From Tricholoma matsutake (Eukaryota > Basidiomycota > Agaricomycetes > Agaricales > Tricholomataceae): a stretch of 64,000 bases of DNA. This document shows, piece after piece, positions 14,536 to 40,576 of the stretch. The stretch covers positions 4,402,001 through 4,466,000 of the forward strand of contig AP026548.1 of NCBI GenBank assembly GCA_026075535.2. The letters are read 5' to 3'. Within the stretch, counting starts at the first letter, position 1. Each line of letters starts with the position of its first letter. The notes under the pieces were generated by a model. It was not told where the DNA came from. It did no database searches and was given only the letters and a program-made list of their open reading frames with translations. Both the position numbers and the translations under genes were made by a program.

Positions 14536-14968
14536 ATAAGGGCAACCTCAGCCTCTAGCAAAGGGAAATCCGAAGTTAAAATTATACTACATGTTACAGG
14601 GATTGGGGATGCACCTAGCAAAGGGAAATCCAAAGAGAAAACTCTAAGGATCCCTTTGCTGATGCCCAGTATATGTGAAGATGACAAAAATCAAATAATA
14701 ACCTAAAAATAGAAAAGGCGGAGATAGGCAGATCAAGGCCACCGAATGACATCATACCAAGGGGTAGATGTCGGAAGGGGTACTCTGCCTCTAAATATAA
14801 AACTGTCAACATGCACAAACATGATAGAAAGGGAAATTAGTAATAAAATCCGGAAAAATCATAGAAAATGAAGAATAGAAGGAAATGAAGTGAGGAAAAA
14901 TATAGAACAAATGTAAAAAATAGGAGAAACACACAGGACACCCCCCTAGTCCCCCTAGTCCCCTTACA
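14536..14968 (-). repeat. LTR B at left end of the inversion (hybrid junction)
   Basis: A 433-bp minus-oriented LTR B, TATAAGGG...CCTTACA on the plus strand. Its two flanks (aatag on the left, ctacc on the right) do not match. Read in LTR orientation, the right flank is GGTAG, identical to the 3' flank of element B1 at 44441-44445. The left flank is CTATT, near-identical to CTAAT before the B1 5' LTR at 38877-38881. This is the signature of reciprocal exchange between two inverted LTRs. Confidence 0.85.
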
Positions 14969-15774
14969 CTACCTTGGATATCATTAATAGTGGCACCAAA
15001 GACAGCTGGAGGATGATTTATATGGTCATGATAAGTCTTGTGAAGAGTCTTCTATGATCTGGCAAGACAAAAAAAATTGAAGCCAAGAGTCAAATGACTG
15101 TGTAATGTACAGCTGGCATGGAACCCATTTGAGGCCATTCTGGGCATTCTGAATTTTCCAGAGATTTGTATTGCATGCACGTGATCTTGGAGACTCCTTC
15201 CACTGACATTTCCAAGGAATTGGATAAGGGAAGAGGGAAAGGCACTGGGGACAGCATGCTGTCTTGATGATATCTGGTTCAGGGCAGTGAAGCTGCTAGG
15301 CTGTATGAACATCATGAGGAAGTTTGACATTAGAAAGTTTGATAGCAAATCCTGATGACATCAAAGCAATGCCAACAAGATAAAGAGTTGCAGAGATGAT
15401 AACCTGAATTGCTCATAGAACTTTGTTGGTGATAGCACGACTTACACCAGCTCTGGTGTGGAGCCAGATGACAAGAAGGCAGACCATCTTTATAATAAGT
15501 GTAGTGGAAAAGTTGATATCTGTACTATACTTTTCAACTATATTCTTATGGAAACAGTTTAGCACTTACCTGTTGGAGAATTGGAAGCTGTAGATTTTTT
15601 TGATGATGAACTTGGGGATGATTGTGGCTTCCATCTTGCCAAGGCAGGGTTTTTATTCTGTTTCTCATGCATCAAATGAGTTGGACCACTGACAGACTGG
15701 CCTGGTTGTTCAACACCATGAATGCAGACAGTTTTCATGCTGCAAACTGTGCATGTACATATAACTGAAGGCAT
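14969..15774 (-). pseudogene. Transposase-like gene, N-terminal part (continues at 44441)
   Basis: On the minus strand the first exon starts MPSVICTCTVCSMKTVC with a cysteine motif and GVEQPGQSVSGPTH. Further down are SGRSLQDHVHAIQ and, after a putative intron ending near 15050, KTLHKTYHDHINHPPAVFGA and TINDIQ. It stops at LTR B (14968). Joining this end to 44441 with one copy of GGTAG gives DIQGSPAWNDILG in frame. I therefore treat 14969-15774, 44441-44993, 53243-54901 and 60767-60818 as one gene. Splicing in the 15350-15560 stretch is unresolved. Family: agaricomycete transposase-like proteins with a later DPVKHVVLGFMHNWLEG motif; the exact DNA-transposon superfamily is unsure. Confidence 0.65.
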
Positions 15775-16479
15775 TGTTGAGTGAAAGAGGAAGGAAATGG
15801 AAGAAAGGAGTATTCATGGTGCTAACTGCTACTCCATATTTAATTAAAGTATGTAACCTGGTAACAAGAATAATACAACAAAAGTTGTTGCACCACATGA
15901 TGATCAATGATCAATGATTAATGATTAACCAATTTAATGATTATTGATATATATATTGATAACTTTGTTACAATCACAAGGGCAATATTACATAATTACT
16001 CTGTCAACTGCCATACCAGCAAGCAGAGGTTGTATCATGAAGGATAGATAGGCGCACCCCATGGCAATTATAATTTCTGCGTGCGCACAGTCAAGCTGTA
16101 TTTAACATGTGAAAAGTGGAATAAACACCCATTCTAGGTCACAACAACATATAACCCACAGAGCGATGTTGACACTTGTGTGGGAAAACAAAAAGAGGGC
16201 ATTGTCAAGGCGCAGATAACTGGATGTTAGATGTAAATGGAATACTATCAGATCTTTGATACTCAAAAGTGCATTGTGAGACTCAGATGAGCATTCTTGG
16301 TGTGTCAGATAGCCAAGTTGCCTCCAGTAAGAGGATACCCATTCAAGACTAGTGATGTGTCCATATGTAAGTTGTGATGAATCCAATGCACCCAACAAAT
16401 AGCCAAAGACACAGAAGTTTCACAAACTAAATCAATGAAACATGTCAATAACCAATTTATGAGCATAGAGGAAACATAC
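15775..16479. other. AT-rich spacer between transposase N-terminus and OCD remnant
   Basis: Upstream flank of the transposase-like gene, very AT-rich at 15890-15960. It would contain the promoter and outer end of that transposon, but I could not identify a terminal inverted repeat. Reading frames here show no domain. Confidence 0.4.
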
Positions 16480-17200
16480 CAGTCATAGCTGTCTACGCAC
16501 ATCCCAATGACCATGTGCTCAGCCTTGTCAACAACTGCACATGCAATGGCCACATCCTGCAAACCCACACCCACAGACTTGAACATTGTAATCAGGCCCA
16601 CACCCCTCTGTCCTTCCCCCTTCGCCTCCCAATCCAGCAGACTCAATTCTCTTTGCTCAGAAACCTTCACCAACTCCCCAATCTCTGCCACCTGCGACCC
16701 ATCCACACCAGCCTCAATCAACTCCCCTGCCTCAGCTGCACACCATCCAGGAATCGACTAACAAAAACCTATCTCTCATTGCTCGATGTACAAGCTCACT
16801 ATTGACCTCGCACATGGCAGGGGTGTAGCTCCCTTTGAGAATGACGTGAGTCCAGGATTTGACCCACAAAGAGGGGAAGAGTGGGGAAGTGGAGGAGGTG
16901 GCACATATGATGAGGGAGGCATTGGATATGGCTTTTTTAATTTTGTTTGATTCGGCTGGGATGTTGGTGATGTATTGGAAGGATATGGTAGGGAAGAGGG
17001 GTTTGATGTGGTGCTGGAGTGCATAGAGATGTGAATTGAGAGTACAATTGATGATGGTGCAGGAGGTGAGAAGGTTGTGAGGTGGAGATGGAGGTGAGCT
17101 TGGATTTGTTTTCCAGCTCCAAAAGTGACGAGGGAAGTTGGTCTGAGTCATATGATGTTGGTTGAAAGTAAGGAAGCTGTTATGATGTCACACCAGGGGC
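16480..17200 (-). pseudogene. Ornithine cyclodeaminase / mu-crystallin family remnant
   Basis: On the minus strand, LVTFGAGKQIQAHLHLHL (about 17070-17130) carries the Rossmann GAGKQ motif. After a frameshift near 17060, CTIINCTLNSHLYALQ, ICATSSTSPLFPS, ILKGSYTPAMCEVN and LLVDSW follow. A further break leads to AGELIEAGVDG, VAEIGEL, FKSVGVGLQDVAIA and VDSYD. The order and spacing match NAD(P)-dependent ornithine cyclodeaminase/mu-crystallin enzymes. The N-terminal third is not found, and at least two frame disruptions are present. The canonical VDS(R/K) segment reads VDSW. A dead gene or gene fragment, possibly captured next to transposons. Confidence 0.78.
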
Positions 17201-18299
17201 AAAAGCTAGGGAAGTTGAGTTTCAACTGCCTTCAAGGCAGTGGGCATCGCTCCTCCACACACATTCCAGAACAGCTGAATTTCAAAGAGTCAATCACCTC
17301 AGGCTTTCTATTCCTATATAAAATGAGAATACAGGCTGTGACGTCCACCATACAGTGCTGCCTCAAGTTTTGAAGGTTGGACAGGAAATGCATATTCACA
17401 ATGAAGAGAGCATGTGGTTAGCGGTGGATGGTGGGAGTTGTTAATCTGCACAGCCATCTATGTACTCACACTTTGCAAACTTCAGATCAAGATGCCATCC
17501 GTGTAATTCTGGCCACCCTTGGGGATGCTCAAGATACCATGACTTCACGCTATATGCGCTGGGCAGTCTGAAATCTCATGCAATGTTGAACTGTACAGAT
17601 TTTCAGATGATCCAAGATGTTTGTGGCACGACATGGCATTTATGTCATTCTGGCTCTAGCGGCAGGAGACATACTGCCCAGGTATTAAGCAGTGGAATGG
17701 TCTTCAGCAACTACTTAACCTTGAGCTAGAGTAGAGTTCCAGATTATGATATCTCAATCTCATGAAGGCTATACAGCAAGCTGAGTCTTCTGTCATTAAA
17801 GGTGCTGGCACCTATCATAGAGAACTTCCAAAGACAGAAACCAACAATTGGCTTTCCCACATTCAGAATATCCGACCAACTTTTATTCAAAGTATACAGC
17901 ACCTGCATTCACCCAAGTCACATTTAACTCATATTACCTATTACTGAGTATGCACTAGACCCAGGCATAGTTCAAGAACTCTGGTCTCCTTCTCACTACC
18001 AGATTCTGTTTACTCCTCAGGAACTGATTATTATCATCTCAGGGTTCATCTCATACTCAGAGATATTGTTTACTCAACACTCTGACCCCACCTGATCACC
18101 CTCCATATTTTTGTCTGCAGCATGGTGCATGCAGAATTCATGTGGGACCTTGCCAATGAATTCAGAGCATGGTCATCACTGCCTATCTAAGGTTGGATTT
18201 TACCCAAGCACAGCAAGTGATTAGATTTGCATATGCTAGTGCTTATAGTAGTATAACACTCTAAGGTTGTCAGATCCAATCAGCAACTGGGGAGTTGAA
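17201..18299. other. Non-coding DNA, nothing recognised
   Basis: Short frames only. No LTR end, inverted repeat or conserved protein motif was found. It may be degraded transposon or intergenic sequence. Confidence 0.4.
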
Positions 18300-18487
18300 T
18301 GATAATTATGATGAGAGGACATGACCTCACCATGGTTCGAGGCTTTGAGCCATAATCACCATTTATAGCATACAACCTGTCAATAGTTCTCCATGTAGGA
18401 ATGCAGAAAAGATGACCAGACTGGGGATTGAACCCAGGCCCTCCTGGACATATACCAGATTCTCTGACCAACTGAGCTATCACACCT
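18300..18487 (-). repeat. tRNA-derived SINE-like element or tRNA pseudogene
   Basis: On the minus strand the block begins GGTGTGATAGCTCAGTTGG (A-box TAGCTCAGTTGG) and has GGGTTCAATCC as B-box about 45 nt later. A T-stem CTGGG/CCCAG closes a seven-base TTCAATC loop. An anticodon-like stem TCTGG/CCAGG closes TATATGT, but position 33 is A rather than U. The 3' sequence after the T-arm cannot pair with the 5' acceptor half. About 110 bp of unrelated body follow, ending in an ATCATAATTATCATT tail. This is the layout of a tRNA-derived SINE. No clear target duplication, and no second copy seen here. Confidence 0.55.
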
Positions 18488-21257
18488 AGTCAAAATTGGG
18501 TTGGAGCTGAGCGAGAGAAATCAAGAAGGGGTGATGATGGGGATTTTCATCAAGTGTGATCGAGTAATTTTGTAGAATCCAACTTGTTTCTCTCCCACAC
18601 AAGTTCACACATCAGTTTGAAAATTTGAACAATTGTTGTGACAACTTCCCTCTCTTCTTCCCACTTACATATGCACATTCATTCAAAATCAGATCAGAAT
18701 TTTTAAGTTCCCACTTTGTCTCCTGCCATGTCATCTCTCTTTTGCTACATTGACTTTGTCTTCTTCCAACTTCCCTGGCTACAACCTGCTCTGCTACTAG
18801 TGCTCTGGCATATAAGTACCCTTCTTAGCTATTGTAAGTCTAATTAGAACTTGTACTGCTTAGATGCACTAACACAGGTTTTTACAGTATCCTCCACCAT
18901 GACATGACATGTGCATCCCATTGGTTTTGCCTCACTCACATCATTACATCACCAGCAATGGGCCAGCCTTGCCTATTGCATTTGGTAATGCCTGGCCCAT
19001 CGCCTCTTCCAGCTGAAGCTGTCCAATATCACTCAAGTCAAAAAACCTGTAAACAATTAGCAAAGGGGTCTCAAGAGGTTTTGTAGGGCTAGCAAGCTAA
19101 GTTGACTTTTTCTTCATGTTCTCACCCCACTGACTGAGTTGTATGGTAGCAACTTTTCTTGAGAGGTTACTAGCATAGTTTGAAGCAGGGATGGGGAGCT
19201 GTTAGGATTACTGGGAACTAGATATATGGCTAGTAGTAGCAGTATCCTTGTATAATAGTTTCACACAATACAACATTTCTACTAAATTCTAGTAATGGTA
19301 AATTTGTATGGTATAAGGATTCTTCCATTGGGAACAAATTGGGAACCCCCAAGAAAAGTTTACCCAGTAATATTCACCTGATCTTGTTGTGCTCTGATGA
19401 TGGTGTGATGGGCTCATTAAATGATTGAGGTAATGTGTCAAGTTTCTTGTCGCATCTAAACTAGTCAATATCAGCTAACAACATCGGTCCATCTTGATTT
19501 CCCTTGCTCAGCTCTGAGCCGATTTTGACTGGGTATCACATCTTATAGGGTTCAACAGAACAAGGATACCATATAACCAGACATGGATTGCTACAACTAT
19601 CACATCACTTGTGTGTGTATGCAAAATATGGTCTGTTAAGCACTGATTAAGCAGTGGCAGATTATATAATCCAACACTCTGCTGTACAAATGGCCAAACC
19701 CAAGATGAAATGTGGCAACCTGAAGAGTGATTTCTTCTGACTTGACTTGATGAGGAGTGGGACACCATGAAAGCACAAGTCATGGTGAGGATTGACTCTA
19801 TACTCAAAGCTTAGAGCTTACTGTGAACCCTATTCAACTATGTGCATCACATGATTTTTGGAAAACACTGGTATGGGCATGTTAACAGCAATCCCAGTGA
19901 AAACTGGACCTGGGCTGAGGGAGATAAATCAAGTGAAATCATGATGGCAATTTTTTTTGATTGTCATCTGTATAACTAAGAATTTGACCCACTTTCTTGA
20001 TTTTTTACTGAGGTTTACCAATATCTATCAGTGTCTATCAAGTGAGACTGTAAACAAACTATATCTTCCTCAATTTCTCTCAATCTGATGGAATTCAGTC
20101 ACACCTAGGCAGATCGAGACAAAACATTATTGGGTTTAAAGAATGTTTACACAAGTCCAATGGAAAGGTCAAGCCACAACAACTAGTCACATGGATACTA
20201 TGACCCTCACCGCATGCGGCCTTCCAGGCATCTTAATCTTTGCATGTCTTGCATTATGACACAGCCACAGCACTGCATGCAATCCTCATCTTTGCATGCA
20301 TTGCATTGGGGTCAGGGAACACTCACTGAATTTAAACTCCAATACTCACAGTGAAGAAGGGTAGTCATCTTTATCTCTATCCACAGTAGGATTCATGTAT
20401 TGTTTGTATGAGAAAAAATGCTTGAGAATGTGTTCTTAGAAAAGTCTCCAGAGTAGATTTTTTTTAAACAGCTTAGTTCATCCAGAGGGCCCTTCAGAAC
20501 ACAGAGATCTCAACATTGAGGATCCTTCCAAAAAATCTGTTCTGGAGAAATTATTAATCAGAAATATTCAAAATGGTGCATTCAAATTTTATTTCAGGAA
20601 AAATGGTAGTGCGGAAGCCTGAAAATGTTCATGCAAACTTGACCACATTCTGTTATCCCAGAAAGGCAATTCCAATTACCAGCAACATGGAATTGACACA
20701 TCAGAGGGGTATTCAGAGGATCAGATACAAAGAGGGCCAGTAGGATCTCTCATAGTTATAATCTGCATGCTTTCTCCAGCAAAAACTATTGTGTGGAGGT
20801 AGAACAAAAACCTAAGTATCTTCATGTCCCAAAAAGGAAGTCATGGCTGGCAGACACGATGGCAAAGATGGCGCTGGCAAACATGTAGTACTCCTGGTCA
20901 TTGACAGTGCCCTATATGTACCATGAATGCAAAGTAATCAAATGAATTTGCTCAGAAGAAGAACATAGCCTCCTTCACAGGAAATTGTGCTGCAGAGATT
21001 TCACAGCTAGTTCAAACTTCAGGTTGACTGCTAGTATTACCTTGGTATTACCTCAGGCTAGTGACTAGCTGAAAGACAACAAGAGAACTCTTTGCATACA
21101 GGAAGCTGGGTGACTAATTCATTGATTTATGCAAGATCAGGGCAACAACAACAAGATCCACCTTGTAGAGTCATAGATATAAATCAGAAACAGTGCCAAC
21201 ACAACTTATTCTAGTCAAATGAGCAATGTAGAAGGTGAAAACAATGTTGGCCAATAC
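18488..21257. other. Non-coding DNA with one dispersed similarity
   Basis: No gene recognised. About 40 bp near 18507-18550 and 19912-19955 share gagataaatcaagtgaaatcatgatgg-like sequence, interrupted by differences. This suggests two copies of a small unknown repeat. The rest has only short frames. Confidence 0.4.
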
Positions 21258-21714
21258 TATAAGGGCAACCTTAGAGGCCACTTAATTAATTAATGGACTA
21301 GCAAAGGGAAATCCAAAGGTAAAATTATAGTACATATTACAAGGATTGGAGATGCACCTAGCAAAGGGAAATCGAAAGAGAAAACTCTAAGGACCCCTTT
21401 GCCAATGCCCAGTATATGTGAAAATTGCAAAAATCAAATAATAGTCTAAAAATAGAAAAAGGTGGAAATAGGCAGATCAAGGCCACCAAATGACATCATA
21501 CCAAGGGGTAGATGTTGGAAGGGGTACTCCGCCCCTAAATATAAAACTGTCAACATGCACAAATGTGATAGAAAGGGAAATTAGTAATACAATAAGGGAA
21601 AATCATAGAAAATGAAGAATAGAAGGAAATGAAATGAGGAAAAATATAGGATGAACATAAAAAATAGGAGAAACACACAGGGCATCCCCCCGAGTCCTCC
21701 CTAGTCCCCTTACA
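21258..21714 (-). repeat. 3' LTR of Gypsy element B3
   Basis: A 457-bp minus-oriented LTR B (TATAAGGG...CCTTACA on the plus strand). It is longer than other copies because of about 20 extra AT-rich bases near 21275-21300. The adjoining polypurine tract (minus AGAGAGGGTTGA, 21715-21726) marks it as a 3' LTR. Outer flank AATAC; the partner flank is lost. Confidence 0.85.
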
Positions 21715-21726
21715 TCAACCCTCTCT

Positions 21727-24114
21727 AAGATGCATTGCCCTGATGCATCCAGAATTGCATATGACCAAAGTCAGTGACTTGAATGTGATGTGGTGCAGCA
21801 GCGTGCCATGGGTGGAATTCCTTGACTAACCAAGGGGCATTCACATTGGACTCCTCAACTCATGAGTTCTCCTCATACCCATAACCCTTCCAGTGTGCCA
21901 AATACTGGAGTTTTCCTTGATGCAACTGGCTGTCCAAGACCAACTTGACTTTGTACTGGGGTTCTCTGGTGGACATGAATGGCATCCTGGGAATGGATCT
22001 GGGGCAGCTGGAAGGAGTTTGATGACATGGAAGACTGGGTGGAGTCTGGACATGAAGGCTGGGAGGTGAAGACAATAGGCATGCATTCCAACACACCTGA
22101 CAATGGGGAAAAGCAATGGGCAAGATTCTTGGATGGTTGTGTGGTGGAGATGTCACTGGAGTCAAGATAAACTCGATCACCAATCTTGTACTGAGGGGCT
22201 GGAGAATGGCATTGATTGTAAAAGCACACCATGTCGTCCTTCACCTTTGCTAAGGCTGCCTTTGCCTCCTCAAAGCTATCCCTCATGCATTCTGTGAACT
22301 CATTCACCATTTCAATGTGTGAGGGAGTTTGGTGAGGTTTGAATCCCATGCATGGATGCCATCCAGTGTCTAAGAGGAAAGGGGTCTGTTGAGTGGAAGC
22401 ATGGATGTGGTTATTGTATCCAAACTCAGCCAAGGGGAGAAGATCATCCCAATTGTCCTGGCACTCATTGACAAAGATGCAGATGTACTACTCCAGTTCC
22501 TGGTTGACTCACTCAGTGTGGCCATCAGTTTTCAGGTGATAGGCAGTTAAAGCAAGGAGTTTGATCCCCAGAACTTGGTACAGCTTGCAAGTGAACTCTG
22601 CCACAAACTGAGGGCCACAGTCAGAAAGGAAGTCCATGTAATTTCCACACATGGTGGAGATAGAGTTGGGCAGCACCCAGGGCACTGACAGTGGTGTGAG
22701 TGGGGATAAAGTGAGTGTGTTTCCCCACTGAATCAACTGTGCACATTGCTGCATCAAACCCATTCGACTCTGGCAACTCCACCACAAAGTCAACACTGAC
22801 AACATCCCAATGACCCTCTGGAACAGGAAGAGGGTATAGCTCACCAATGAGTTTGCGATGAGGAATCTTGGTGCATAAGCAAAGGTCACAAGTATGACAA
22901 TACTAACCAATGAGCTGTGACATTTGTGGCCACCAATAATTCTGTGAGGTAAGCTCCAAGGTCTTCCAGCATCCAGGATGACCAGCAATCTGTGAGTCAT
23001 GGTGTTGGGATATGTTGCGCCAGCGAAGGTCTGGGTCATTGGGGACATAGATGTGATCCCTGAAATACAACAAGTCCTCTTTTTCAGCCCACTCTGCCAC
23101 ACACAAGGAAAGGGTGGATCCCTTCCTCAGTTCCTTAACAGCTCAGGCAACAACATCCTCATGTAAACCACTACAGTTTGCATGATGAATGTTGTGTAGG
23201 ATGTCCTGCTCCTCACCCTGGGGCATGATGCCTTCCAGTGCCCAAATGGTGAACAGGTCTGGCTGCAACAACACAATGTTTTGATTGTCATTGCTGCCAT
23301 CCCCCATGGTCTGCATGTCAGGAGAGGGCGTCGGTCTTCCCCATGCTGCAACCTGGATGGTGGTGCAAGGAGAAGTCAAATCTGGATAGATACAGGGACC
23401 AACGAGCTCCACAATGATTCAATTTCTTGGCCATCATAAAGTGCTCAAGATTCTTGTGATCTATCCAAATTCCTACCTTGTGTTGGGCACCCTCAAGGAA
23501 GTGTCACCACTCCTCGAGCACATGCATTATCACCAACATCTCCTTGTCATAGATCTCATAGTTTTGCTCTACAGCACTAAGGCTTTTGGAGTAGAATGCA
23601 ACATGATGCCACTTCTGGTCCTCTGGAGACTGCTGAGACAACACAGCACCCGTCACAAAGTCAGAACTGTTGGCTTCTACATGAAAAGGGTGTGAATTGT
23701 CAGCAAAGGTAAGAATGGGAGTGGAAGTGACCAGCTCCTGAAGCTTTTTGAATGCCTCTTGTTGTGCATTATTTCACCTCCATCCCTCCTTTCCTGTCAA
23801 GTTGAACAGTGGTCATGCATGATGTGAGAAATCCTTGATAAAGCACCAATAGAAATTGATGAAGCCCAGGAAAGACTGCACCTCTTTCTTGTTCATGGGT
23901 GTTGGCCAAGCCATGACCCCATTCACCTTGATAGGATCCATCTCCACCTGACCCTCTGAGATAATCAGGCTGAGGTACTCGATCTTGGTCTTCTCAAACT
24001 TGCACTTGTGCTGATGAAGGTAGAGTTTGTACTGTTGAAGTCATTCCAGGATGAGGCGTGTGATGTGATGGTGCTCTTCAACCATGCAAGTGAAGATGAG
24101 GATGTCATCAAGAT
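21727..24114 (-). pseudogene. Gypsy element B3: RT (partial), RNase H, integrase, chromodomain
   Basis: Minus-strand 3' part of a chromovirus polyprotein, homologous to B1 and B2. It retains LDDILIF of reverse transcriptase next to the 24114 break, the RNase H region, integrase zinc-binding residues, LSDCGPQF (CpG-decayed SDRGPQF), AYHLKTDGHTE and the C-terminal chromodomain. TGA stops stand at Arg positions (for example ALS*). At the RNase H ER motif this copy has CAA where B1 and B2 have TGA, pointing to an ancestral CGA. It is truncated upstream at a MITE end. Confidence 0.82.
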
Positions 24115-24132
24115 TAGTGTTTAAAGGTCCAG
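24115..24132. repeat. hAT-like MITE terminal fragment
   Basis: TAGTGTTTAAAGGTCCAG is identical to the first 18 bases of the MITE at 61850. It cuts the reverse transcriptase of B3 and abuts LTR E3. The rest of the MITE is missing. Confidence 0.6.
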
Positions 24133-24566
24133 TAATAGGTCCACCTTGCACTCTCAGCTCTGGAAACATTTCCAAATGCATCGACACATCACCCCACATG
24201 CTCCCAACCCCTATGAACCCCATGAAACCACTCCAAAACTATTTCGTAGCACTTCAAACAATTTTGAACAATTTTGAATGACTTTGAATGACTTTGCAAC
24301 ACTTTGAGCAAGTTCAAACAACTTTGCAGCACCTCGAATGCCTTTGGCCACCATATGCCTATCACACCACCCTTCAGACACATGCAGCACACCTTGTATG
24401 AGTTAGTGCATTGCATATCAAGCACCACCAGACATGAGGAGATATGACAATGGGCTTTTAGGATGTGATTGTGGTGCTTTGACATCTCGATGATATATTG
24501 GATCAATAGGACAAGTACACTTGATATATTGTGACTCTATATGTTTCCCTTCTCATCATTTCTCAT
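24133..24566 (+). repeat. LTR E copy E3, 5' part (continues at 9543 on minus)
   Basis: Starts TAATAGGTCCACC, versus TGATAGGTCCACT in E1. It contains the 'gactttg...gcctttggccaccat' block shared with E1 (about 13095-13125). It ends at CTCAT (24562-24566), the target duplication of element C. The sequence that should follow is found on the minus strand from 9543. Confidence 0.75.
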
Positions 24567-24968
24567 TGTTAGGAAACCACCCCATTACCTAATAAAATTT
24601 CATTTTGATTTTATTATGTCAAATTATGCTACATGATGCCAAATGACACTACACTTTGATAGCATGAGAATTTTGTTTTGCACACATCAATATGTATGTG
24701 CATGTACGAGTGTGTCAGTAACAACAATGTAGAATATATGTAACATAGTATATGAACCCTAAATATATGCCTGGGGGACCCCAGTTGTGTTCTCTTAGGT
24801 ATTCCACCTACACTTTTGGTGTGAAATGCCTTTGTCAATAAACTCATCTATTAATAACCCCTTGCATCAAAACCATCAATTCCCCCATCATGCACGTGGA
24901 TCCTGCCCCCTTCTTGTAGAGAGAACCTGCACAGTCTTAGCTTGCAGATAGTGGGTGTCACCCTAACA
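24567..24968 (+). repeat. 5' LTR of Gypsy element C
   Basis: 402 bp, ends TGTTAGG and CCTAACA. TATA-like tracts at about 24750-24770 precede the candidate transcription start AGTTGTGTTCT (24783-24793). The sequence right after the LTR, AGAATACAACT (about 24971), is complementary to that start with one G:U pair, which fits a self-priming primer-binding site. It pairs with the 3' LTR at 9544-9945 by the shared CTCAT flank. Confidence 0.85.
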
Positions 24969-25464
24969 GAAGAATACAACTCCCCATATCAGTGCACCTT
25001 CTCTTACTTGCGCATACATCATTGCTTCACTGTGCCACATCTGATTACTCATCCTTTTGGCATGAGCCAGAAGTACTTGTATATATGTAATCTACCTTTT
25101 CTTTTGTAAGCCAACACCAGGCCTCGCCTTACATTGCAACTGCCAGTGATCGAGAGGCAGCACTCATCATTAGGACAGCTGCAACCAGAAAACTGATTGG
25201 ATCTGGTTTAGTCATGATTTTCATCACTCTATTTGGATGACTATTTTAGTTACAAGCCAAATTCAGTGTTATCTCCGAGATCAGGCACTGTTGGAAGGGT
25301 TATTGATCCAAAGTGTCAAATTAGGTGCCCAACAAACGATGAACAATCGACGAACCATTGACAAACAATCAACGAATGATCATGTGACCTGTAAATGTTT
25401 GGGGAGGTCTCGAAGAACAAATCTTGAATTTGTTGAAGAAGTGATTCATCACAGATTTTACCAT

Positions 25465-26645
25465 TATGTCCAAACCCTCAACTTCTAATCCCAGCCCTAA
25501 TCCTGTTCCCACACCAGGGCTAGAGGTGAAAATTGATGCGCTTACAGCACAAATGTTGCAATTAGTGTCAGTGTTGGCAGCATCACAGCCCAGACAAGCA
25601 GAAGTACAGCCAGAGATGAGATGATGAGATGGAGGAGATGGTGGAGTGGATGTCGCAGGAGGATGAGACAGTGGAGAAATCTGGAAATGGAAAAGTGTGC
25701 TTACCTAAGTATGTGCCCCCACAAATCTTTGATGGTACCATGGAGAATACAAAATCCTTCATCAGTTCTATAGTATTGTACATCCATGGGAGGAAGCCAG
25801 AGTTTCATACAGCCGAGTCTAGGATTATGTTTGCTCTCTCATACATTCAGGGGGGGGGAAGCACAGTTCTGGAGAAACAAGGCTATTAATCAAATTGCCA
25901 TGGGAAATAAACCATTTGCAACCTTCAAGTAATTTCTGGAGAGATTGGAGGCACAGTTTGGAGACCCTAATCCAAAGGTGATAGCCAATGCTAAATTAAA
26001 GACCATGTGCCAAGGTTCCCTAAGGGCGGATGAATTTATTTTGCAGTTCAAAGCAGAAGCTTTGCAAGCAGATATGGGAGAAGCCATGTTGGTAGAGTGT
26101 TTGAAAGCAGGATTAAATCCCTCTTTATTCAAGTCTATCTACTGACTACCTTCTATGCCAGAGAAGTTGGACGAGTGGTATAATTGGGCAATGCACCTTG
26201 ACCGGCAATATCAGCAGGAACAGGTGGAGTCAAAGTTGATGTATGGAAGTAGTAAATTTGGAAAGTCTGAGAAAGGAAAGGCGCCTCAGGTGCAAGCTCT
26301 GAGGGCACAGCCACTGGCCATGGCAGTAACACCTATAGTTACAGAGTCAGCAGCACCAGCAGAGGCAATGGAGGTTGATCAAGCAGGGAGATGAGCCCCA
26401 CTTAAATGTTTTAACTGTGGGCAGTTAGGACACATCACTAGGAATTGTAGGCAGAAAAGAAAGATTAGGGAAGCTACAATCAAGGAAGTGAAGCCAGAGG
26501 AAGGCAGGCAGAAGAATTTTGTGGAAGAGTCCCAGTGAAGGTTTCCCCATTGGTGACCCAGAATCATTACAATGTATTAGTATCCAAGGAAACACAGAGT
26601 AAATCAGAAAAGAAAATCGAGGAGGAGTACAACTGTTGCAAATCA
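25465..26645 (+). pseudogene. Gypsy element C gag
   Basis: Nucleocapsid/capsid precursor of element C, starting near 25465 (MSKPSTSNPSPNP). It carries a retrotransposon gag domain (PPQIFDGTMENTKSFISS at about 25725; LKAGLNPSLFKSIY at about 26100). A CCHC zinc knuckle, CFNCGQLGHITRNC, stands at about 26408-26449. Frame breaks at about 25620 and 25860, and stops in place of Trp/Arg codons at 25931, 26144 and 26394, make it inactive. Coiled, Glu-rich region between 26150 and 26400. Confidence 0.8.
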
Positions 26646-26699
26646 TGTGACAAAGAAAATTGCTGAGCATTATTTCCAAAAACCCCTAAATTCTTTATT

Positions 26700-29264: not shown

Positions 29265-29972
29265 TGTCAAGAACCGTTCCTCACCCGATTGGAACCCGCA
29301 TCTGTCTGACTCTTTTCTGTACATCGAACCCAACATTTGTCTACTCCTCCCGATTTTGTTCCTGGCTGCCTTGCACTGCCCACACTGCTGTGCACCAGGC
29401 TGACTTGTACAGCACCCACAGCTGCCTTCCCAAGGCTGCTATCTCTATTGCAAATTCGACTATGGATTCCTGTGCAGCTCCCACTAGTTAATTTATCTAT
29501 GCAGTCGAGACACTGCTGCAGTCTTCGTTCCTGTTCCGCATTTATTCTGGACTACAGTATTTAAGCTTAGTTAGTTTTGCCTTGTATTCCTCAGTTCGTA
29601 TATCAACATAAACTCGACTTTAAACCTGCCAATCTAAATCTCCTTCTACTCCTACCTCAGTCCGCTAAGAGTCTGAACTCCCTTCGACTTGACCTCCAGT
29701 CTTCCTCTGAAGTTCTAATCTCATCTGAACTTAAACCAAGTCCCTCCGTACTCCTCCCTGCATTTACCCACACTTCCCTGCTCCTACCTCCAAACCTTCA
29801 TCTTGAAATTAGGACACCAGACGAGGTGAAGGGCACAGCTTCTTACAAGCTGAAGCCAAGTCCTTTCCATTTCCCCTCTCACAGAATCCACAATGACCTG
29901 ACAACCTTCCACTATCAACACTGGCAGGGTCCAATTGGATTCCGATGAACCCTCCAGGATCAGTTCTTAACA
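29265..29972 (+). repeat. 5' LTR of Gypsy element A
   Basis: 708 bp, TGTCAAGAACC...TTCTTAACA. A TATA box (gtatttaag, about 29557) lies some 34 nt before AGTTCGTATAT (29593-29603). ATATACGAACT at 29975-29985, just downstream of the LTR, is the exact reverse complement of that start. This is a self-priming primer-binding site as in Tf1/sushi elements. It is inserted in the integrase of element C. Confidence 0.87.
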
Positions 29973-30012
29973 GTATATACGAACTCACACTTCACTCGTC
30001 CATTTCCTCTCT

Positions 30013-31395
30013 ATGACCCCTACCGAGACCTGCCAGTGCACAACAAGAAACTCCCAATGCGCCGGTACTATTCCAGGGATCTCTGCAATCCAGCGATCCA
30101 CCCTTTCCGACCCTTGACCTGCCACTACTTTTGGAGTGTCTTCCAGACCCTCAAACATCTTCCAACAAATTGGCTCAGGAGCCCCCTCAATCAGTGCCAA
30201 TCTCATGTCCACCCATGCCCCGCAACCTTCCGGCAACCCAGAAGGTTTTTGATCAAGACCTCCCCTTGAGTACATAGGGGGCATCAACCAGCCTGAACCC
30301 TTTGGGTTGGAAGATCCTGGTCTAGAGGACGGACCCCCCGGCAGACCCAATGACCCTAGTGGTCCTGACGGCCCTGGGGGTGACCCCGATCCCAATGATC
30401 CTGAGGATCAACCTCCCGCGGGGGAAAGCCCTGACCCAGGGGATAGGTTCATAGATGTCCTTTACAACCTCTCAGAGAGTATCTGCACCCTTCGTCAGAA
30501 TAACACACCCAACACCGAGAAAATCAAAGTTCACGACCCCGACACTTTTGATGGCACCAATCCAAAGAAACTTAGAGACTTCCTAGTCTCCTGCAATCTT
30601 CATTTCCGTGACTGTCCACACATATTTTCCTCTGATGAGAAAAAGATCATATTCATCCTTTCTTATCTTAAGGGATCAGCTCTCAGTTGGTTTGAGCCTG
30701 GTCTGAATGACCTGACAGATTCCGCACACTGGATGTGGGACTATGAAGCTTTCCTCGCCGAGCTGGAAAGCAACTTCAGTCTGCATGACCCAGTCAGAGA
30801 CATGGAAAAAGCTCTCTCTGACTTAGCAATGAAGAAAGGTGGTCATATCACAAAATATAATGTTGACTTCTGGGAATTAGCTTCTAGGGTCAACTGGAAT
30901 GAAGCAGCCCTTCGTGACTGCTATTTCTGCGGTCTTCTGCTCCGGCTTTGCATAGAAGTTCTCCGGGGTGGTAAACCCAATACTCTTGCAGAACTGCACT
31001 TGAAAGCACAGGACAGCAACGACATCTACTGGATGCAAGAAGATGAATCCCATTTTGAAACAAAGAATTCCAGTAACGTCACTAACTCTAGTTGGAAGGA
31101 CACTTCCAAAAGTCCTTCCCCATCGACAAACCAAACCTGTTTGAACTCCGCCCACGGTAACACCTCCAACCAGCAGTCTTCTGTGACAAAGAACACTCCC
31201 TGGGACAAGCCCAAATTGTCCATCTCCGATGAAGAACAGCAAGCTTACTGGGGAGGAACGAGAATGTCACATGAGAGAACGACTTTGTCTCTACTGCGGT
31301 GAGGAAGGGCACGTAGCAGGAAACTGCCCGAAATCCAAAGCCACAAAAGCCCATGCATCCGCTGTTGTTCCTGGCACTATGGACTCGGAAAAATA
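30013..31395 (+). pseudogene. Gypsy element A gag
   Basis: Gag of element A. The frame from ATG 30013 reaches 31302, broken by TGA at about 30118 and at 30253-30255 (both fit decayed CGA). There is a Pro/Gly/Asp-rich N-terminal region, then a capsid-like domain (FDGTNPKKLRDFLVSC, LKGSALSWFEPGL). After a one-base shift near 31255 the CCHC knuckle [14 protein letters not shown] follows (about 31290-31331). It packages element RNA in the family; here inactive. Confidence 0.82.
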
Positions 31396-31439
31396 GTCCG
31401 CAACCCTCAGGAAACAGCCATTGGGGCTGGGGGTTGCAT

Positions 31440-32496
31440 TGACCTTACCCACTTGGCTGCCTACGTTTGTCTCAATGTGTCCGCTCTTTCCGACCCTGAC
31501 TCCGAAACCATTCTTTTAACCCTTCCCGACTCTTCTGCTCCTGTCCAAACCCTTATCGACTCTGGCTCCTCCCACTGCTTCCTTGACTCCTCCTTCATGT
31601 TGGATAGCCAACTCAGCATGGAATCCATTAACCCAATTGGTCTACAACTCTTTGATGGATCTTGCAACTCCACCATAACTCAGGTTGTCAAACTTCCAGT
31701 CACCTTCCCTGCTGGTGAAGTATTCAATTTGTCATTCTATGTAACCTCGCTTGACTCTTCCTGTTCCGCCATACTCAGTCATAACTGGCTGAAGCAATAC
31801 AATCTGTTGATTGACTGGTCTTCAAGCCAACTCGCTTTCCGCTCTGCAGATCATAGAGGTCCAGCACCCCCAATGTCACCTTTGTCCCCAAACCTTCCGG
31901 TAGAAATCCTCGACTCCTCCACACTTTCCAAACCCCCCATTCCTCCAAAGTTTACACCTCCCAACATCTCTTTCATCAACGCTGCTGCTTATGCACATGC
32001 TAGCAAACTTCCTGGGGCAGTAGCTTTTCAGATGACCTTTGCTCCAGAAGGGTTATCCACCTGCTCTGCCCAATCCGCTAACTCATCCAACATTTCCAAT
32101 ATTCTGCCTGAGTATCATGAATTTGCTGATGTCTTTAATAAGACTAAAGTGGATACCCTTCCTCTGCATCAGTCTTATGACCTCAAGATAGAGACAGAAG
32201 ACAATACTCCTCCACCTCCAGGCCGCATGTATTCTCTCTCCCCCTCTGAATTAGAAGCCTTACAAGTCTTTATTGATGAAAATGTCTGCTCAGGCTTCAT
32301 CCACCCATCCAAGTCCCCGCATGGCGCTCCTATTCTCTTTGTCAAGAAGAAGGACGGTAGTCTCCAACTTTGCATTGACTACCAAGGACTCAACTGTCTC
32401 ATGAAGAAGGACTGCTACCCACTCCTGCTCATTTCCAACCCCCCAAAAAGCCCGCTTATTCACTAAGATAGACTTGTGGCATGCTTATCACCTAGT
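31440..32496 (+). pseudogene. Gypsy element A pol: protease and first part of RT
   Basis: Aspartic protease motif [14 protein letters not shown] at about 31549-31590 with an intact DSG. The RT N-terminal region includes [18 protein letters not shown] (about 32341-32394) and LWHAYHLV (about 32472-32494). It is cut at 32500 by LTR E2. The continuation at 36320 reads RIADGDEWK, so the RT is contiguous once E2 and one copy of its 4-bp duplication are removed. A frameshift lies near 32440. Confidence 0.85.
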
Positions 32497-32623
32497 CCAC
32501 TGATAGGTTGTCTCCTCGGCTCAAAGGCCGATTCACCATTTTGACCACATTCTAATCACATCGGATAACTTGCACGAGGTCCCAGAAGCAGTGCGACCAC
32601 TCCCGACCAAGTCTACTGAGCAC

Positions 32624-32775
32624 GAGCATCATATCGAACGTGATCAAACATCGTCGAGCATCATATTGAACATGATCAAACATTGTCGAGGATCGTATTG
32701 AACACGATTGAACATTGTCAAGTCGAGCATCGTTGAGCATCGCGAGCATCATATCGAACGTGATCGAACAACATC
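32624..32775 (+). repeat. 32-bp tandem repeats in LTR E2
   Basis: Four 32-bp units, starting gagcatcatatcgaacgtga, plus one irregular 24-bp unit (32720-32743). The units differ mainly at CG/TG and CG/CA positions. The corresponding part of E1 and E3 has other short repeats, so this LTR region is length-variable. Confidence 0.75.
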
Positions 32776-33033
32776 GAACCTCGAAAAACATTGTCGGACA
32801 CAGTATTTCTTGTTTGAACAATCTTCAGATGCATGCTGGGCACATGGGACACTATATCGAGTATATCGAACACATTTCGACCACATGTGCATGCATACAA
32901 TCTGCTCAAAGCAGTTTCCGATCTTCTATTCAATTTATAACAAGGACAGTCCAGTTTTAGCTATTCTTTTTTATTATTTCTTCATCATGTGTTATATTCA
33001 CCCCTTCTAGGCTCACTTTATTGTTCTGATATA

Positions 33034-35694
33034 CAGTTGACTCCCTCATAACCCATAGCCCTGATAACCCATACTCCCTTGTAACCCATACATTTTTTGA
33101 TCCACCAAGTTGGTAGGCGGGGGATTTGAACCCATAACCCATACTCCCTGATACCCCATAACCCATACCTTTTTTGAGGCAAAACCCATACATTTTATTA
33201 CCATATATATACTAGTGCAGTTGGTCATGTCAACTTCAATGGGCCACAGACATATAATTTACTCTCTCAATACTCAAATTCCAGCTACCCATGCCATTAA
33301 AGCCTCTTGAGGTCCTCAAAAAGGGGCTGAAAATCTTGCAGGATCAGGTTAAAGCCAAGAAAGAGAAGCTACAGGCTCAGCTGCATGTGAAAAAGTCAAT
33401 ATCATCACTTGATGAGAATTGGCTTGACAACGAGGCAAATTTGGTGGATGAGCGACGGGTTTTGGACGCGCTGGAAAATGCTTCGGATTATGAGAGGGGC
33501 TGCGAAAGACTTGATGAGACACAAAAGGGCGTCGTAAGGAGATTACGGGAGGTGGCAGGTGACCTGAGCAAGGCTGTAGGAAGGAAGTGGAAAAGTGCGT
33601 GAACAATTATGGCTCATCATTGCAGTAACATTGAACCGACATAAAGGATCTGAACCCAAACCTAAAGAACCCAGTGAGAAGAAAATGTCAAATAAGGAAT
33701 GTAGCGCACCTGTTTTCACCAAGAAGGAGAATGCGACGCTTGCCCAGTGCATTGAAATCTTGGACTGGTATCATAAGAATGGCAAAAACCAGTCAAAAAC
33801 GGCAAAACACTTTGATCCAATATATCTAAACCTAAAGATGAATCAGCCACTAGTCTCTGCATGGGTAAAGGGTGAAGCAAAATGGTGGGAAGAATGGGCA
33901 CATAGCAGCGGAGGACACACGGCTAAACGGGCCCATCAAACACAGCATCCAGAAGTCACCGAAATGATGGAGCTATGGGTGTCAAAGGCAATGGCAGAGA
34001 GTGTTCTGCTCACGGGTGAGGTCCTGTGCCAGAAGTGGACAAAGTTTGCAGACCTGGCGGGTGTCCCACAGGATGAATGTCTCAATCTAAGTGATGGTTG
34101 GTTGAGTCGTTTTAAGGCCAGGACTGGTTTGAAGCAATTTAAGTGCCATGGTGATGCAGCATCAGCAGATCTGGAAGCAGTGAAGAGAGAGCAAAAACGT
34201 GTCCAGGAGCTTATCGATAAGTATGGCTATGAGCTGCGGGATATCTTCAACATGGATGAGACTGGGTTGTTCTATGCATATGCACCATACCAATTTCCTA
34301 GTTTGAAACACACTGATTTCAGAAATAGATTGCCTCCAGATCAAGGTTTATCAGACAAGAAACATTCGGGAGTGAAGGGCTGAAAGGTCAGACTCACCTA
34401 TGCGTTCACATCTAACGTGGACAGGTCTGAGAAACTACCACCTATCATTATTGGTAAAGTGAAGAGACCTCGAGTGTTCCAAAAGAAATCAGGCAAACAG
34501 CTTGGCTTCTACTATCGGAACAACGCAAAGGCTTGGATGACTTCGGTGCTCTATCAAGAATGGATTCAGGAGTGGGATTCTGAACTACAGGTGAAAAACC
34601 GCAAGATCCTTCTTTTACAAGATAATTTCTCTGGTCACATTGTTCCAGATGGTCTTCAGAATATCTGTGTCGAAAATTTTGAGCCAAATCTCACTGCACA
34701 TGTCCAGCCAATGGATCAGGGGATTATCCAATGCTTCAAAGCTCATTACCATGCAAAATACATTCAACGCACCATTGACCATTATGAGGAAGGGGTCACT
34801 CCCTCCAAAATCTATGATATTGACCAACTCCAAGCAATGCGGCTTGCGGATGTGGCCTGGCACGAGGTGGACATGACTACAATCAGAAATTGCTGGAAGA
34901 AGGCCACTATTCTTCCCCTTGCTTCTCCCATACCAGCTCCCAATCCAAGCATCACTGTCTCATCCCTCCTCAATGGCGACAACACCCATGGTATTGAAGA
35001 TCCAGCCACACATGCTGAGAAGCAGCTTACTTGTGCTCTTGACGAGTTGGAATCAACTGGGGTACTTCAGCTGAGCAACAGGATGTATATTGAGGCACTG
35101 CTCAATCCAGCTGATGAGTTGCCACAGGTAATGGAAGAGACAACAGATGAAGAAATATGCCAGGCCATGTTAGATGCAAGAAAAGCGCAGGAAGAGGGAC
35201 TGATTAATGGCGGAGATGATGATGTCGATGATGATTCATCTGCCATTGAGCCGTGTCCTACACATCACGAAGTACTTCAGGCAGCTTCTGTCATTAATAA
35301 GTATATTGATACTCTCAATGATCCCATTGCGCACAGCCTAGAGGGTGTTCTGGCTTCTTTTAGATATCAAATGTGGTTGGAGATGTCTTGTTCCATGAAA
35401 TCTACTCATCTCACTGACTACTTTCATCATGTATAATCTTCAAATAATTTGAAAAACAGTTACTTTAGCTGTATATAGTTTACATTATAGCTGTACATAG
35501 TTCTACTCTAGAGTTGGCACCAGAAATGTAGAGTTGGCACCAGAAATGGCCCTACATGCGTCGAAATACATATCTGAAAATTTCCTGGATTTTTTCGGAC
35601 CTAATTTTAGAACATTCCTCAAACCCCATACTCCCTCATAACCCATAGCCTGGGGTGTCCACCGAGGGGGTATGGGTTATGAGGGAGTCGACTG
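33034..35694 (+). mobile_element. pogo/Fot1-like Tc1-mariner transposon
   Basis: A 2661-bp element with terminal inverted repeats CAGTTGACTCCCTCATAACC (left) and the complementary GGTTATGAGGGAGTCGACTG (right). It is flanked by TA on both sides (33032-33033, 35695-35696), the Tc1/mariner target. It is inserted in LTR E2. Extra copies of 'ataacccatactccc' occur inside both ends (33060-33180, 35625-35660), a subterminal repeat. It encodes the transposase at 33291-35436. Confidence 0.9.
33291..35436 (+). pseudogene. pogo-family DDE_1 transposase with one premature TGA
   Basis: Exon 1 (33291-33594) is a charged coiled-coil region. A short intron 33595-33625 keeps the frame. Next comes a psq/CENP-B-type HTH (ATLAQCIEILDWYHKNGKNQ, about 33733-33792) and a second DNA-binding region (LSDGWLSRFKARTGLK). 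The DDE domain follows with FNMDETGLFYAYAP (first Asp, about 34250) and LLLQDNFSGH (second Asp, about 34611-34640). The third acidic position lies downstream in the VQPMDQGIIQ region. A single in-frame TGA at 34381-34383 splits it. It cuts and pastes pogo elements at TA sites; this copy needs the stop to be bypassed, so it is probably dead. Confidence 0.88.
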
Positions 35695-36054
35695 TACTTA
35701 TATTGTCTTTTGCCTCAAGTTTTCCACATGTTTGCCTCATGTTCTCTAGCCTTTGTAGGTACTTTCTTTATTTTATATAAAAAGATGTACTAGATACAAA
35801 GAAAAACAAGAAAGTCATCGTCTTCCTCCCAGATCACAGTGATTTGAGAGTACAGTTTAGTCTTATTCAGTCCAAAGTTTGGTGTTTTATGCTAAACTTC
35901 CTCGAAATTCCTCGAAATTCCTCGCATTACGCTATTTTCGCTCTCGCTTCCCTCGATTAGCCTTTTTGTCACTTCTACTACTTGTCTAGTCCCCCAATCT
36001 TGCGTCCGAACATACCAGCGCACTCGAAACTCCTTGAAACCTCTTCGAAAAATA

Positions 36055-36145
36055 TTGCGACATCTCGAAAATCATTGCAACACCTCGCAAATCATTGCAA
36101 GGTCTCGCAAATCATCACAACCACTCGAAAATCATTGCAAGCCCT
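36055..36145 (+). repeat. About 18-bp tandem repeats in LTR E2
   Basis: Four to five tandem copies of a ctcgaaaatcattgcaac-like unit with variants ctcgcaaatc. The repeats are comparable in nature, not sequence, to the short repeats in E3 (9200-9250). Confidence 0.65.
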
Positions 36146-36319
36146 TGAAACACATTCTTTTAGCCTTGAACTGCTTTGACAAGCAGTCCTTTTATGACTA
36201 TTTGACGGTCGATCTGACAGGTGACATCTGGAGGGCCTCGCAACCTTCCTCTGACTCGTGTTATACCATCTGAAGCCATTTTGTGGGTTTTGTTTGGGTT
36301 TCCAGATTGAGTATCATCA

Positions 36320-38873
36320 CCGCATTGCTGATGGTGATGAGTGGAAAACCACTTTCTGCACCCGCTACAGATCCTTCGAGTGGTTGATGGTTTCCTTTGG
36401 ACTCACTAATGCACCCACAGCTTTCCAGCGGTTTATGAATGACATCTTCAGCAACATGCTGGATTTTTGTGTCATCGTGTACCTCGATGACATCCTAATC
36501 TACTCTGACAACAAGTCCCAGCATGGGGCTTATGTCAAGGAAGTCCTCCACCGTCTCCGGAAAAATGGACTTTACGCCTCTCCACAGAAATGTGAATTTC
36601 ACAAAGACACCGTTGAATATCTGGGTTTCATCTTGTCACTGGATGGACTGTGGATGTCTGAGGATAAAGTCAAAACTGTGCTCGACTGGCCCAAGCCTAG
36701 GAAAGTCAAGGATATACAATCCTTCCTAGGCTTTTGCAACTTTTACCGCCACTTCATTAATGGCTATTCAGACATTGTCATCCCACTCACCCGCTTGATG
36801 CAGAAATCCACACCCTGGGACTTCAACAAGAAGTGCCACGACGCTTTCAAAAAGCTCAAACAAGAATTCACTCATGCCCCCATCTTAACTCAATGGGTAC
36901 CTGACTCACAGATGGTACTCAAAACCGACGCTTCCAACTATGCCCTAGCGGCTATCCTTTCAGTTTACACTGTGGATGGAGAAATCCATCTGGTGGCCTT
37001 TCATTCCCGTTCCTTTAATCCTGATGAACTAAATTATGACACCCATGATAAGGAACTCTTGGCAATTTTTGAAGCCTTCAAACACTGGTGGCAGTATTTC
37101 AAGGGTTCCGCAAACCCGGTTGATGTGGTCACTGACCACAAAAATCTTGAATACTTCAGCACTACTAAGTTGCTCACCTGCTGCCAGGCCCATTGGTCTG
37201 AATACCTTTCACAGTTCAATCTCATCATCCACTTCTGCCCTGGAAAATTGGGGGCCAAGCCAGACACACTCACAAGACATTGGGACATCTACCGCAAAGG
37301 GGGAAATAAACCTGACCAACTTCCGACCTGTATTCACACAGGAACAACTCACTTCTTCCCTTCATGCCACCTACCTTGCAACACCTATCCTTCAACAAGC
37401 AGTAATCATGGATGTTGAGAAACTCCACCACGACATCTGCACCTCCCTACCCCTTGACCCCCTATCATCTGCACATCTTCCAACACCTGTCAACCCCAAC
37501 TGGACCATAGATGAGGCAGGTCTTCTCCACCACTTTGACTGGATCTATGTTCTGGACATTGTGGATCTCTGCCTCAAGGTCCTTCAGTACAAACACAATC
37601 ATATCCTCTCTGGCCACTTCAGACAAAATGAACCCAGCAGCTTGTCCATCGGGAATATGTCTGGCCAAACCTCCGCACCTTTGTGCAGGAATTCTGCAAA
37701 TCCTGTACCACTTGCAAACGATCCAAATCGCCTCAACACAAACCCTAGGGGTTCCTAAAGCAACTTCCGGTCCCAGAACAACCTTGGAACTCAATCTCCA
37801 TGGATTTCATGGAACAACTACCCGACTCCGATGGCCACACAGCTATCCTGGTCATCGTTGACTGCCTGACCAAACAAGGCATTTTCATCCCAACTGTCAA
37901 TGAAATCACAGCCCAAGAATTAGCCAACCTGTTCATCCTCCACATCTTCTCCAAGCATGGTGTCCTGTTGAACGTCACATGTGACCAGGGATCTGAGTTC
38001 ATCTCCCATTTCTTCTGTTCCCTCGGAAAAGCACTTGACATGCGGATCCATTTCACTTCCAGTTATCACCCGCAAGGTGATGGTCAGATGGAACAACTTA
38101 ATCAGACCTTGGAGCAGTACCTGCGGATCTTCTGCAACTATCAGCAGGAGGACTGGTCTCACCTCTTACCCTTGGGTGAATTTGCCTACAACAATGCTCC
38201 CTCTGCCTCTACAGGTGTATCCCCTTTCTTTGCCAACAAAGGCTACCACCCAAACATTTCCGTCTTCCCCAAATGCAACTTGGGCTCACAACATGCCCAC
38301 GAGTTTGTCATTGACTTAGATGACCTTCATCAGGAACTTCAAAAACAGCTTGCAGCTGCTCAAGAGCGTTATCAAGGCCCTGCGGACAAACATCAGGCAC
38401 CCGCACCCAACTTCAACATTGGTGACCCTGCCTACGTCACTGCGGAAAATATCCACACCACTCGTCCCTCCAAGAAACTTTCTGAAAAGAACCATGGTCC
38501 TTTTGAAATCATTGCCTGCCTGGGTACTCACTCAGTCACCCTGCGGCTTCTGGACCAGATGTGGGCCATCCACCCTGTTTTCCATGTCTCTCAACTAGAA
38601 AAACACTTCCCAAACACAATTCCAAATTGAGCACAACCTCCACCTCCGATCACCATCAAAGATGAGCTCGAATATGAGATCACCGAAGTCCTCGACTCCA
38701 AGGTCAACAACCAACATCACTGCACAATTCTCTACCTCGTCCAATGGGAAGGTTACCAGGGAACCGATGAAGAGACCTCCTGGCTACCTGTTATGGAACT
38801 TGACCACGCCCAAGAACTCCTTGCAGATTTTCACACCCGCTACCCACAGAAACCTGGACCATTACCCACTTAA
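36320..38873 (+). pseudogene. Gypsy element A pol: RT catalytic part, RNase H, integrase, chromodomain
   Basis: RT resumes RIADGDEWK and has the intact active site YLDDILIY (about 36480-36503). RNase H: KTDASNYALAA (about 36920) and NYDTHDKELLAI. Integrase: zinc-binding region around 37560-37740 with frame breaks, catalytic SMDFMEQL (about 37800) and CDQGSEF (about 37982). The Glu-bearing QMEQLNQTLEQYL follows at about 38085. The chromodomain reads YEITEVLDSKVNN...LYLVQWEGYQG (about 38670-38762) and ends at TAA 38871-38873. A TGA at 38628-38630 precedes the chromodomain. The chromodomain places A among the chromoviruses and suggests targeting to histone-marked chromatin. Confidence 0.88.
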
Positions 38874-38881
38874 AGACTAAT

Positions 38882-39295
38882 TGTAAGGGGACTAGGGGGG
38901 TGCCCTGTGTGTTTCTCCTATTTTTTATGTTCGTTCTATATTTTTCCTCACTTCATTTCCTTCTATTCTTCATTTTCTATGATTTTTCTGGATTTTATGA
39001 CTAATTTCCCTTTCTATCATGTTTGTGCATGTTGACAGTTTTATATTTAGAGGCGGAGTACCCCTTCCAACATCTACCCCTTGGTATGATGTCATTCGGC
39101 GGCCTATCTCCGCCTTTTCTATTTTTAGGTTATTATTTGATTTTGTTGTCTTCACATATACTGGGCATCGGCAAAGGGATCCTTAGAATTTTCTCTTCGG
39201 ATTTCCCTTTGCTAGGTGCATCCCCAATCCCTGTAATATGTAGTATAATTTTAACTTCAGATTTCCCTTTGCTAGAGGCTGAGGTTGCCCTTATA
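38882..39295 (+). repeat. 5' LTR of Gypsy element B1 (right end of the inversion)
   Basis: 414 bp, TGTAAGG...CCCTTATA. The primer-binding site AGAAAACTCT (39298-39307) complements AGAGTTTTCT in LTR B (44330-44339; AGAATTTTCT in this copy at 39185-39194). The left flank is CTAAT in element A and does not match the right flank of the 3' LTR (GGTAG). The gag reading frame stays open through this LTR from about 39023. Confidence 0.86.
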
Positions 39296-40564: not shown

Positions 40565-40576
40565 TATTCACAGCGA

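Follow-up and report, generated by a model that had tools for sequence, protein, structure and literature searches.

Chromosomal inversion by ectopic recombination between copies of a mobile element is a mechanism already known. According to the study on Galileo, a DNA transposon of the P superfamily, such an event should leave its copies oppositely oriented, their target-site duplications exchanged and the copies themselves chimeric (PMC2775673). In mushrooms, a genome comparison reports that inversions and translocations separate the chromosomes of Tricholoma bakamatsutake from those of Tricholoma matsutake (PMC10627285), and in a study of fairy rings one of the 72 variants recorded in monokaryons is a transposon-related inversion (PMC9674265). 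The current work concerns a 64,000-nucleotide stretch of T. matsutake (the window), which corresponds to positions 4402001-4466000 of chromosome 11 in a genome of 161,040,721 bases and 13 contigs. In this window, a segment of 23,913 bp (14969-38881, to which no strand applies) lies between oppositely oriented long terminal repeats (LTRs) of one Ty3/gypsy family, here called family B. In our view this segment has very likely been inverted, whichever LTR of the full-length element at its right end took part.

The locus resembles the Galileo inversions in its two opposite copies of one element at the breakpoints, its swapped duplications and perhaps its chimeric copies, which are shown there and suggested here. 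As expected from that study, homologous copies in opposite orientation stand at the two breakpoints, and the target-site duplications are exchanged, agreeing at 5/5 and 4/5 positions after the swap. Galileo, however, was compared with non-inverted chromosomes (PMC2775673), whereas in T. matsutake the copies are LTRs of a retrotransposon, the block is a transposon-rich one of 24 kb, and the ancestral order was judged from copies of the host transposons elsewhere in the same genome, in place of an uninverted chromosome. The comparison with T. bakamatsutake likewise presents inversions that distinguish genomes within the genus, but at chromosome scale; no breakpoint is traced to a repeat, and the term "ectopic recombination" appears 0 times in the text available (PMC10627285). 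The inversion from the fairy-ring study indicates that such events are observable in this order of life, although the mechanism differs in detail (PMC9674265). Literature searches on the species and the mechanism found no comparable LTR-mediated inversion for T. matsutake, and the present case is new as far as those searches show.

The left breakpoint is occupied by a solo LTR of family B (14535-14968, minus strand), with the ends TGTAAGGGG...GCCCTTATA that characterize the family and, read in the LTR sense, the flanks GGTAG (5') and CTATT (3'). The initial annotation had placed it on the same strand with the same end, but started it at 14536; it is one base longer. The right breakpoint lies at the 5' LTR of B1, a full-length element of 5,559 bp (38882-44440, plus strand) flanked by CTAAT (5') and GGTAG (3'). 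Its 5' LTR (38882-39295, plus), the probable exchange partner, was compared with its 3' LTR (44009-44440, plus; right flank GGTAG at 44441-44445) by Kimura two-parameter (K2P) distance, as discussed below. Paired LTRs together with gag and pol domains identify B1 as a Ty3/gypsy LTR retrotransposon: Retrotrans_gag, RVP_2 (protease) and SH3_Tf2-1 were found in B1, and a reverse transcriptase domain in its relative B2 (54902-60761, minus; 5,860 bp; GTAAT on both sides). The solo LTR (minus) and the B1 5' LTR (plus) are in opposite orientation and share 93.6% identity over 423 aligned bases.

Family B is probably MarY1, as judged from LTR length and copy number. MarY1 is a gypsy-type element of the same organism, for which 683 copies and 3,240 LTRs have been reported, with an LTR of 426 bp (PMC10211490); the LTRs of family B measure 411-435 bp in the six copies of the window, of which the shortest is cut off, and give 3,215 first-look candidates genome-wide. 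The reported length of MarY1, 6,047 bp (PMC10211490), differs from those of B1 and B2, and the match is drawn from these figures rather than from the sequence AB028236.

As found, the two flanks agree at 0/5 positions for the solo LTR and at 1/5 for B1. When the inner flanks are swapped, B1 acquires GGTAG on both sides (5/5) and the solo LTR acquires CTAAT and CTATT (4/5), as had been pointed out in the initial annotation. With random flanks drawn from the window, 5/5 together with at least 4/5 was reached in 3 of 200,000 trials, and at least 9/10, however divided, in 6 of 200,000. Perfect 5-bp duplications surround all five other family B copies for which both ends were seen, namely B2, a solo LTR in L010, and the elements of L005/L076, L007/L077 and L008/L075. 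For this baseline seven full elements outside the window were tried and three were resolved, the far ends of L002, L003, L004 and L006 lying outside the fetched piece; a piece of L078 that resembles an LTR start was set aside as a chance match, as the LTR end does not follow.

The four sequences that border the solo LTR and B1 are all parts of multicopy transposons, and copies elsewhere in the genome can therefore reveal the ancestral junctions. The genome was searched with 400 bp of each flank and the match lists were paired, each list holding the best 40 matches (39 besides the window's own), so that the resulting counts are lower bounds. At the B1 site the restored order was found in at least 28 adjacent pairs, with a gap of 0 in 20 of them, of 1 in three and of 13-42 bp in five. 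At the solo LTR site it was found in at least 13 pairings from 12 copies. Eleven of these lie within 3 bp, the spacing expected because one copy of the target site should be present; the two remaining gaps are 229 and 718 bp, and the copy with 229 bp carries a short extra segment there. Among the same best-40 flank matches, 0 pairs at either site have the present order.

In a second step, joins of 200 bases were aligned to 68 loci. For the inner of two nested LTR elements, 29 copies were fetched and 27 of them span the restored solo LTR site; in this element the part at 14135-14534 (plus) was once joined to the reverse complement of 38482-38881. The restored B1 site is spanned by 23 of the 29 fetched copies of a transposase-like element. 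Neither present-day junction is spanned by any of the 68 aligned loci. In the lists and loci examined, copies of both interrupted transposons are thus continuous across the restored junctions and none across the present ones, which supports exchange between inverted LTRs, the mechanism proposed in the initial annotation.

The gene interrupted by B1 is tentatively classed as Transposase_21-like. Its left half (14969-15368, minus) ends in NDIQG, and its right half (44446-44993, plus) begins with GSPAWND and is followed by a repeat starting at 44994. The reading of DIQ and GSPAW as parts of one gene proved sound: in a natural copy of the element (L040), an open frame of 699 residues reads INDIQGSPAWND without interruption at the position that B1 occupies in the window copy. 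Homologs of the L040 protein occur in many mushrooms, some of them with PF02992 or named as transposase domain-containing; L040 has no Pfam match at E 0.01, so that PF02992 is unmatched in that copy itself. The window copy has an additional frame break in its left half (14969-15268, minus), and B1 is therefore not the sole lesion of this gene.

Two nested LTR elements straddle the left breakpoint; they are equated by inference with the elements called C and A in the initial annotation. The outer element has its left LTR at 9544-9945 (plus), outside the inversion, with the outer flank ATGAG, and its right LTR at 24567-24968 (minus), inside the inversion, with the outer flank CTCAT, which reads ATGAG once flipped. 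The inner element, of Ty3/gypsy type, has one LTR outside the inversion (11050-12298, plus, which includes roughly 0.55 kb of inserted sequence) and the other inside it (29265-29972, minus), with gag-pol frames between 30253 and 38630. Both LTR pairs are inverted across the left breakpoint today and become direct once the segment is flipped. For the outer element, the claimed CTCAT on both sides is borne out, since the flip yields ATGAG/ATGAG as outer flanks; agreement between two 5-mers by chance was seen in 253 of 200,000 trials. One copy of this element (C5:1811880-1812672) runs on across the position of the inner element to within 2 bp; it is the sole neighbouring pair between two lists of 39, each list being the best of about 1,300 candidates. 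The rejoining of the inner element holds as regards its LTR pair, but its outer flanks have no more than GTC (3 bp) in common. The four repairs noted in the initial annotation are all present, but are not fully independent: both repairs of the nested elements stem from one flip of the inner block, and they serve as consistency checks rather than as independent proofs.

The divergence between LTRs was not used as a date. Under a clock the nested inner element should have the less diverged LTRs, yet its K2P distance is 0.078 against 0.057 for the outer element around it, and B2 stands at 0.054 despite perfect duplications; dating was rejected on these grounds. Such behaviour may be due to gene conversion between LTRs. 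The study on crapaud in Podospora describes an earlier fungal case in which full copies have disparate LTRs (PMC10787394).

These observations would be accounted for by the following course of events. B1 would have inserted into the Transposase_21-like gene, duplicating GGTAG, and a related element, now the solo LTR, would have inserted about 24 kb away in opposite orientation, within the nest of two LTR elements. Ectopic homologous recombination of the solo LTR with the B1 5' LTR, probably in mid-LTR, would then have inverted the intervening 23.9 kb, leaving behind two LTRs that are probably mosaic and whose target-site duplications are swapped. The inversion, if real, would be later than both insertions. 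We consider this full statement, with its partner and its probable mid-LTR crossover, to be likely, at a lower confidence than the inversion itself.

Some points weigh against this account: the inversion is read from the sequence of one assembly, and the restored duplication of the solo LTR is imperfect, at 4/5. If no inversion had occurred, the solo LTR and B1 would be separate insertions with decayed duplications, and the nested elements would merely seem rejoined. Duplications can indeed decay, and the outer flanks of the inner element share only 3 bp; however, the copies of the host transposons continue across the restored and not the present junctions in the lists and loci examined, and a swap of this quality by chance is as rare as the control indicates (3/200,000), so that separate insertion is extremely improbable. 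The flip could instead have arisen in more than one step, or from breaks that by chance lay within both LTRs and were healed by end joining; the joining of double-strand breaks can generate inversions according to the Galileo study (PMC2775673). Homologous exchange predicts clean flanks at both junctions, and both junctions lie in alignable LTRs with flank neither lost nor gained, the gap being 0 in 20 of the at least 28 pairs at the B1 site; a single crossover is what we infer, and end joining or a multistep course appears very improbable.

It may also be asked whether the flip exists in the living fungus or is an artefact in which two haplotypes or repeat copies were misjoined through the LTRs, as the initial annotation had allowed. 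The telomere-to-telomere assembly, in which chromosome 11 comprises 10,203,996 bases, was built with hifiasm from HiFi reads of two sporocarps with N50 values of 11 and 10 kb; the genome has 71.6% repeats and a heterozygosity of 1.05%, and one misassembled contig, B6, is acknowledged (PMC10211490). These features of the genome and its record are such as would favour misjoining. A read N50 of 10-11 kb, however, exceeds both the 434-bp LTR and the whole of B1, and a false flip requires two wrong joins. At the level of whole contigs, chromosome 11 is moreover represented by a single one in each of the two separately assembled sporocarps (A12 and B2 in the contig names of that paper; PMC10211490). 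An artefact is therefore improbable, and the flip is probably real.

Which LTR of B1 took part is a separate matter. The flank swap is identical for exchange with the 5' or the 3' LTR, a point overlooked when the 5' LTR was first named as partner, and tests of LTR mosaicism were consequently needed. Had the 3' LTR been used, the inner nested element would originally have housed the full element, and the transposase gene the solo LTR, with the same swap and the same restored junctions. Exchange with the 5' LTR predicts, in addition, that the B1 3' LTR should look like the solo LTR in the 5' part and like the B1 5' LTR in the 3' part. In an alignment of the six LTRs of the window, the agreement with the B1 3' LTR switches between columns 241 and 282, which would place the crossover at 14690-14729 in the solo LTR (minus), or about 39102-39140 in the B1 5' LTR. 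In an alignment of 19 LTRs, 12 of 13 sites are consistent with a single switch, a fit equalled by 26 of 1,287 label orders. The K2P distance between the present B1 5' and 3' LTRs is 0.070 in the 5' part and 0.033 in the 3' part; the pair restored under a 5' LTR partner is even, at 0.033 and 0.033, whereas that under a 3' LTR partner is more diverged and uneven, at 0.070 and 0.047. A 1-bp deletion is common to both B1 LTRs and absent from 16 others, and would be a coincidence if the 3' LTR had been the partner. The same applies to the search with the 5' part of the B1 3' LTR, in which, among the best 40 of 2,717 first-look candidates, the solo LTR ranks first after self; the B1 5' LTR is absent from those 40. 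When the 5' part of the B1 5' LTR was the query, neither the B1 3' LTR nor the solo LTR was among the best 40, which fits an origin from another insertion but proves nothing.

Several results run counter to the choice of the 5' LTR and to a single switch. Columns 33, 330 and 340 of the six-LTR alignment contradict it, most of the diagnostic sites vary across the LTR family, and the 5' part of the solo LTR is nearer to the B2 3' LTR (2.5%) than to that of B1 (3.2%). With columns 34 and 382 added, at each of which two other LTRs share the allele of the solo LTR, a single switch fits 13 of 15 sites and is equalled by 210 of 6,435 label orders. Columns private to one LTR (130 and 333), and the deletions of the B1 5' LTR plus one adjoining column (3-11, 14 and 234-243), were left out of both permutations. 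The 3' part of the B1 3' LTR matches the B1 5' LTR at row 20 of the best 40, self included, and the reverse search with the 3' part did not return the B1 3' LTR among the best 40. The 3' part of the LTR thus discriminates poorly, which leaves room for exchange with the 3' LTR. On balance, the mosaic pattern favours the 5' LTR without settling the matter; we hold the 5' LTR to be several times likelier as partner than the 3' LTR, exchange with which is an unlikely though appreciable alternative. With the 5' LTR as partner, the solo LTR is probably a mosaic whose 5' part comes from the original 5' LTR of B1 and whose 3' part comes from the original solo LTR, while the 5' part of the B1 5' LTR probably derives from the original solo LTR. 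Both breakpoint copies are thereby suggested to be chimeric, the comparison being favourable in the 5' part of the LTR and weak in the 3' part.

The inverted block is rich in mobile elements. The frames scanned in it were 6 of 19 with at least 95 residues (14969-29263) and 7 of 7 with at least 150 residues (29264-38881), and the domains above the curated cut-off in these frames belong to mobile elements, either retroelements or Tc5/DDE_1. Four matches fell below the cut-off, namely to an aspartyl protease, an integrase core, MtrC and OCD_Mu_crystall, the last two being taken for chance. No host gene was recognised in the block among the 13 of 26 listed frames that were scanned. Frames with Tc5 DNA-binding and DDE_1 transposase domains occupy 33580-35436, where they separate the protease frame of the inner element from its reverse transcriptase frame, and we take them to be pogo/Fot1-like. 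The block also holds a third, truncated copy of family B (21258-24114, minus), the 3' LTR of which has an apparent short insert near its end.

Outside the block, B2 has perfect GTAAT duplications, yet its LTRs (54902-55326 and 60327-60761), at the K2P distance given above, carry differing family alleles at several sites; gene conversion between LTRs is a possible cause. Beside the right flank of B1, direct repeats at 44994-45725 and 52510-53237 are 92.9% identical (K2P 0.044), and the minus strand of the approximately 8 kb between them encodes an integrase zinc-binding domain. These repeats probably represent another LTR element.

The present case places both breakpoints inside LTRs and recovers the ancestral order from within one genome, in an ectomycorrhizal mushroom. 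The combination of exchanged duplications with continuity in other copies is applicable genome-wide, and could serve to measure how frequently LTRs drive rearrangement. It is conceivable, though we hold it only tentatively, that this inversion is one of many small cryptic flips produced by the approximately 3,200 MarY1-like LTRs, possibly differing between the two nuclei of the dikaryon. If so, exchanged duplications and the continuity of copies would allow such events to be counted from a single assembly.

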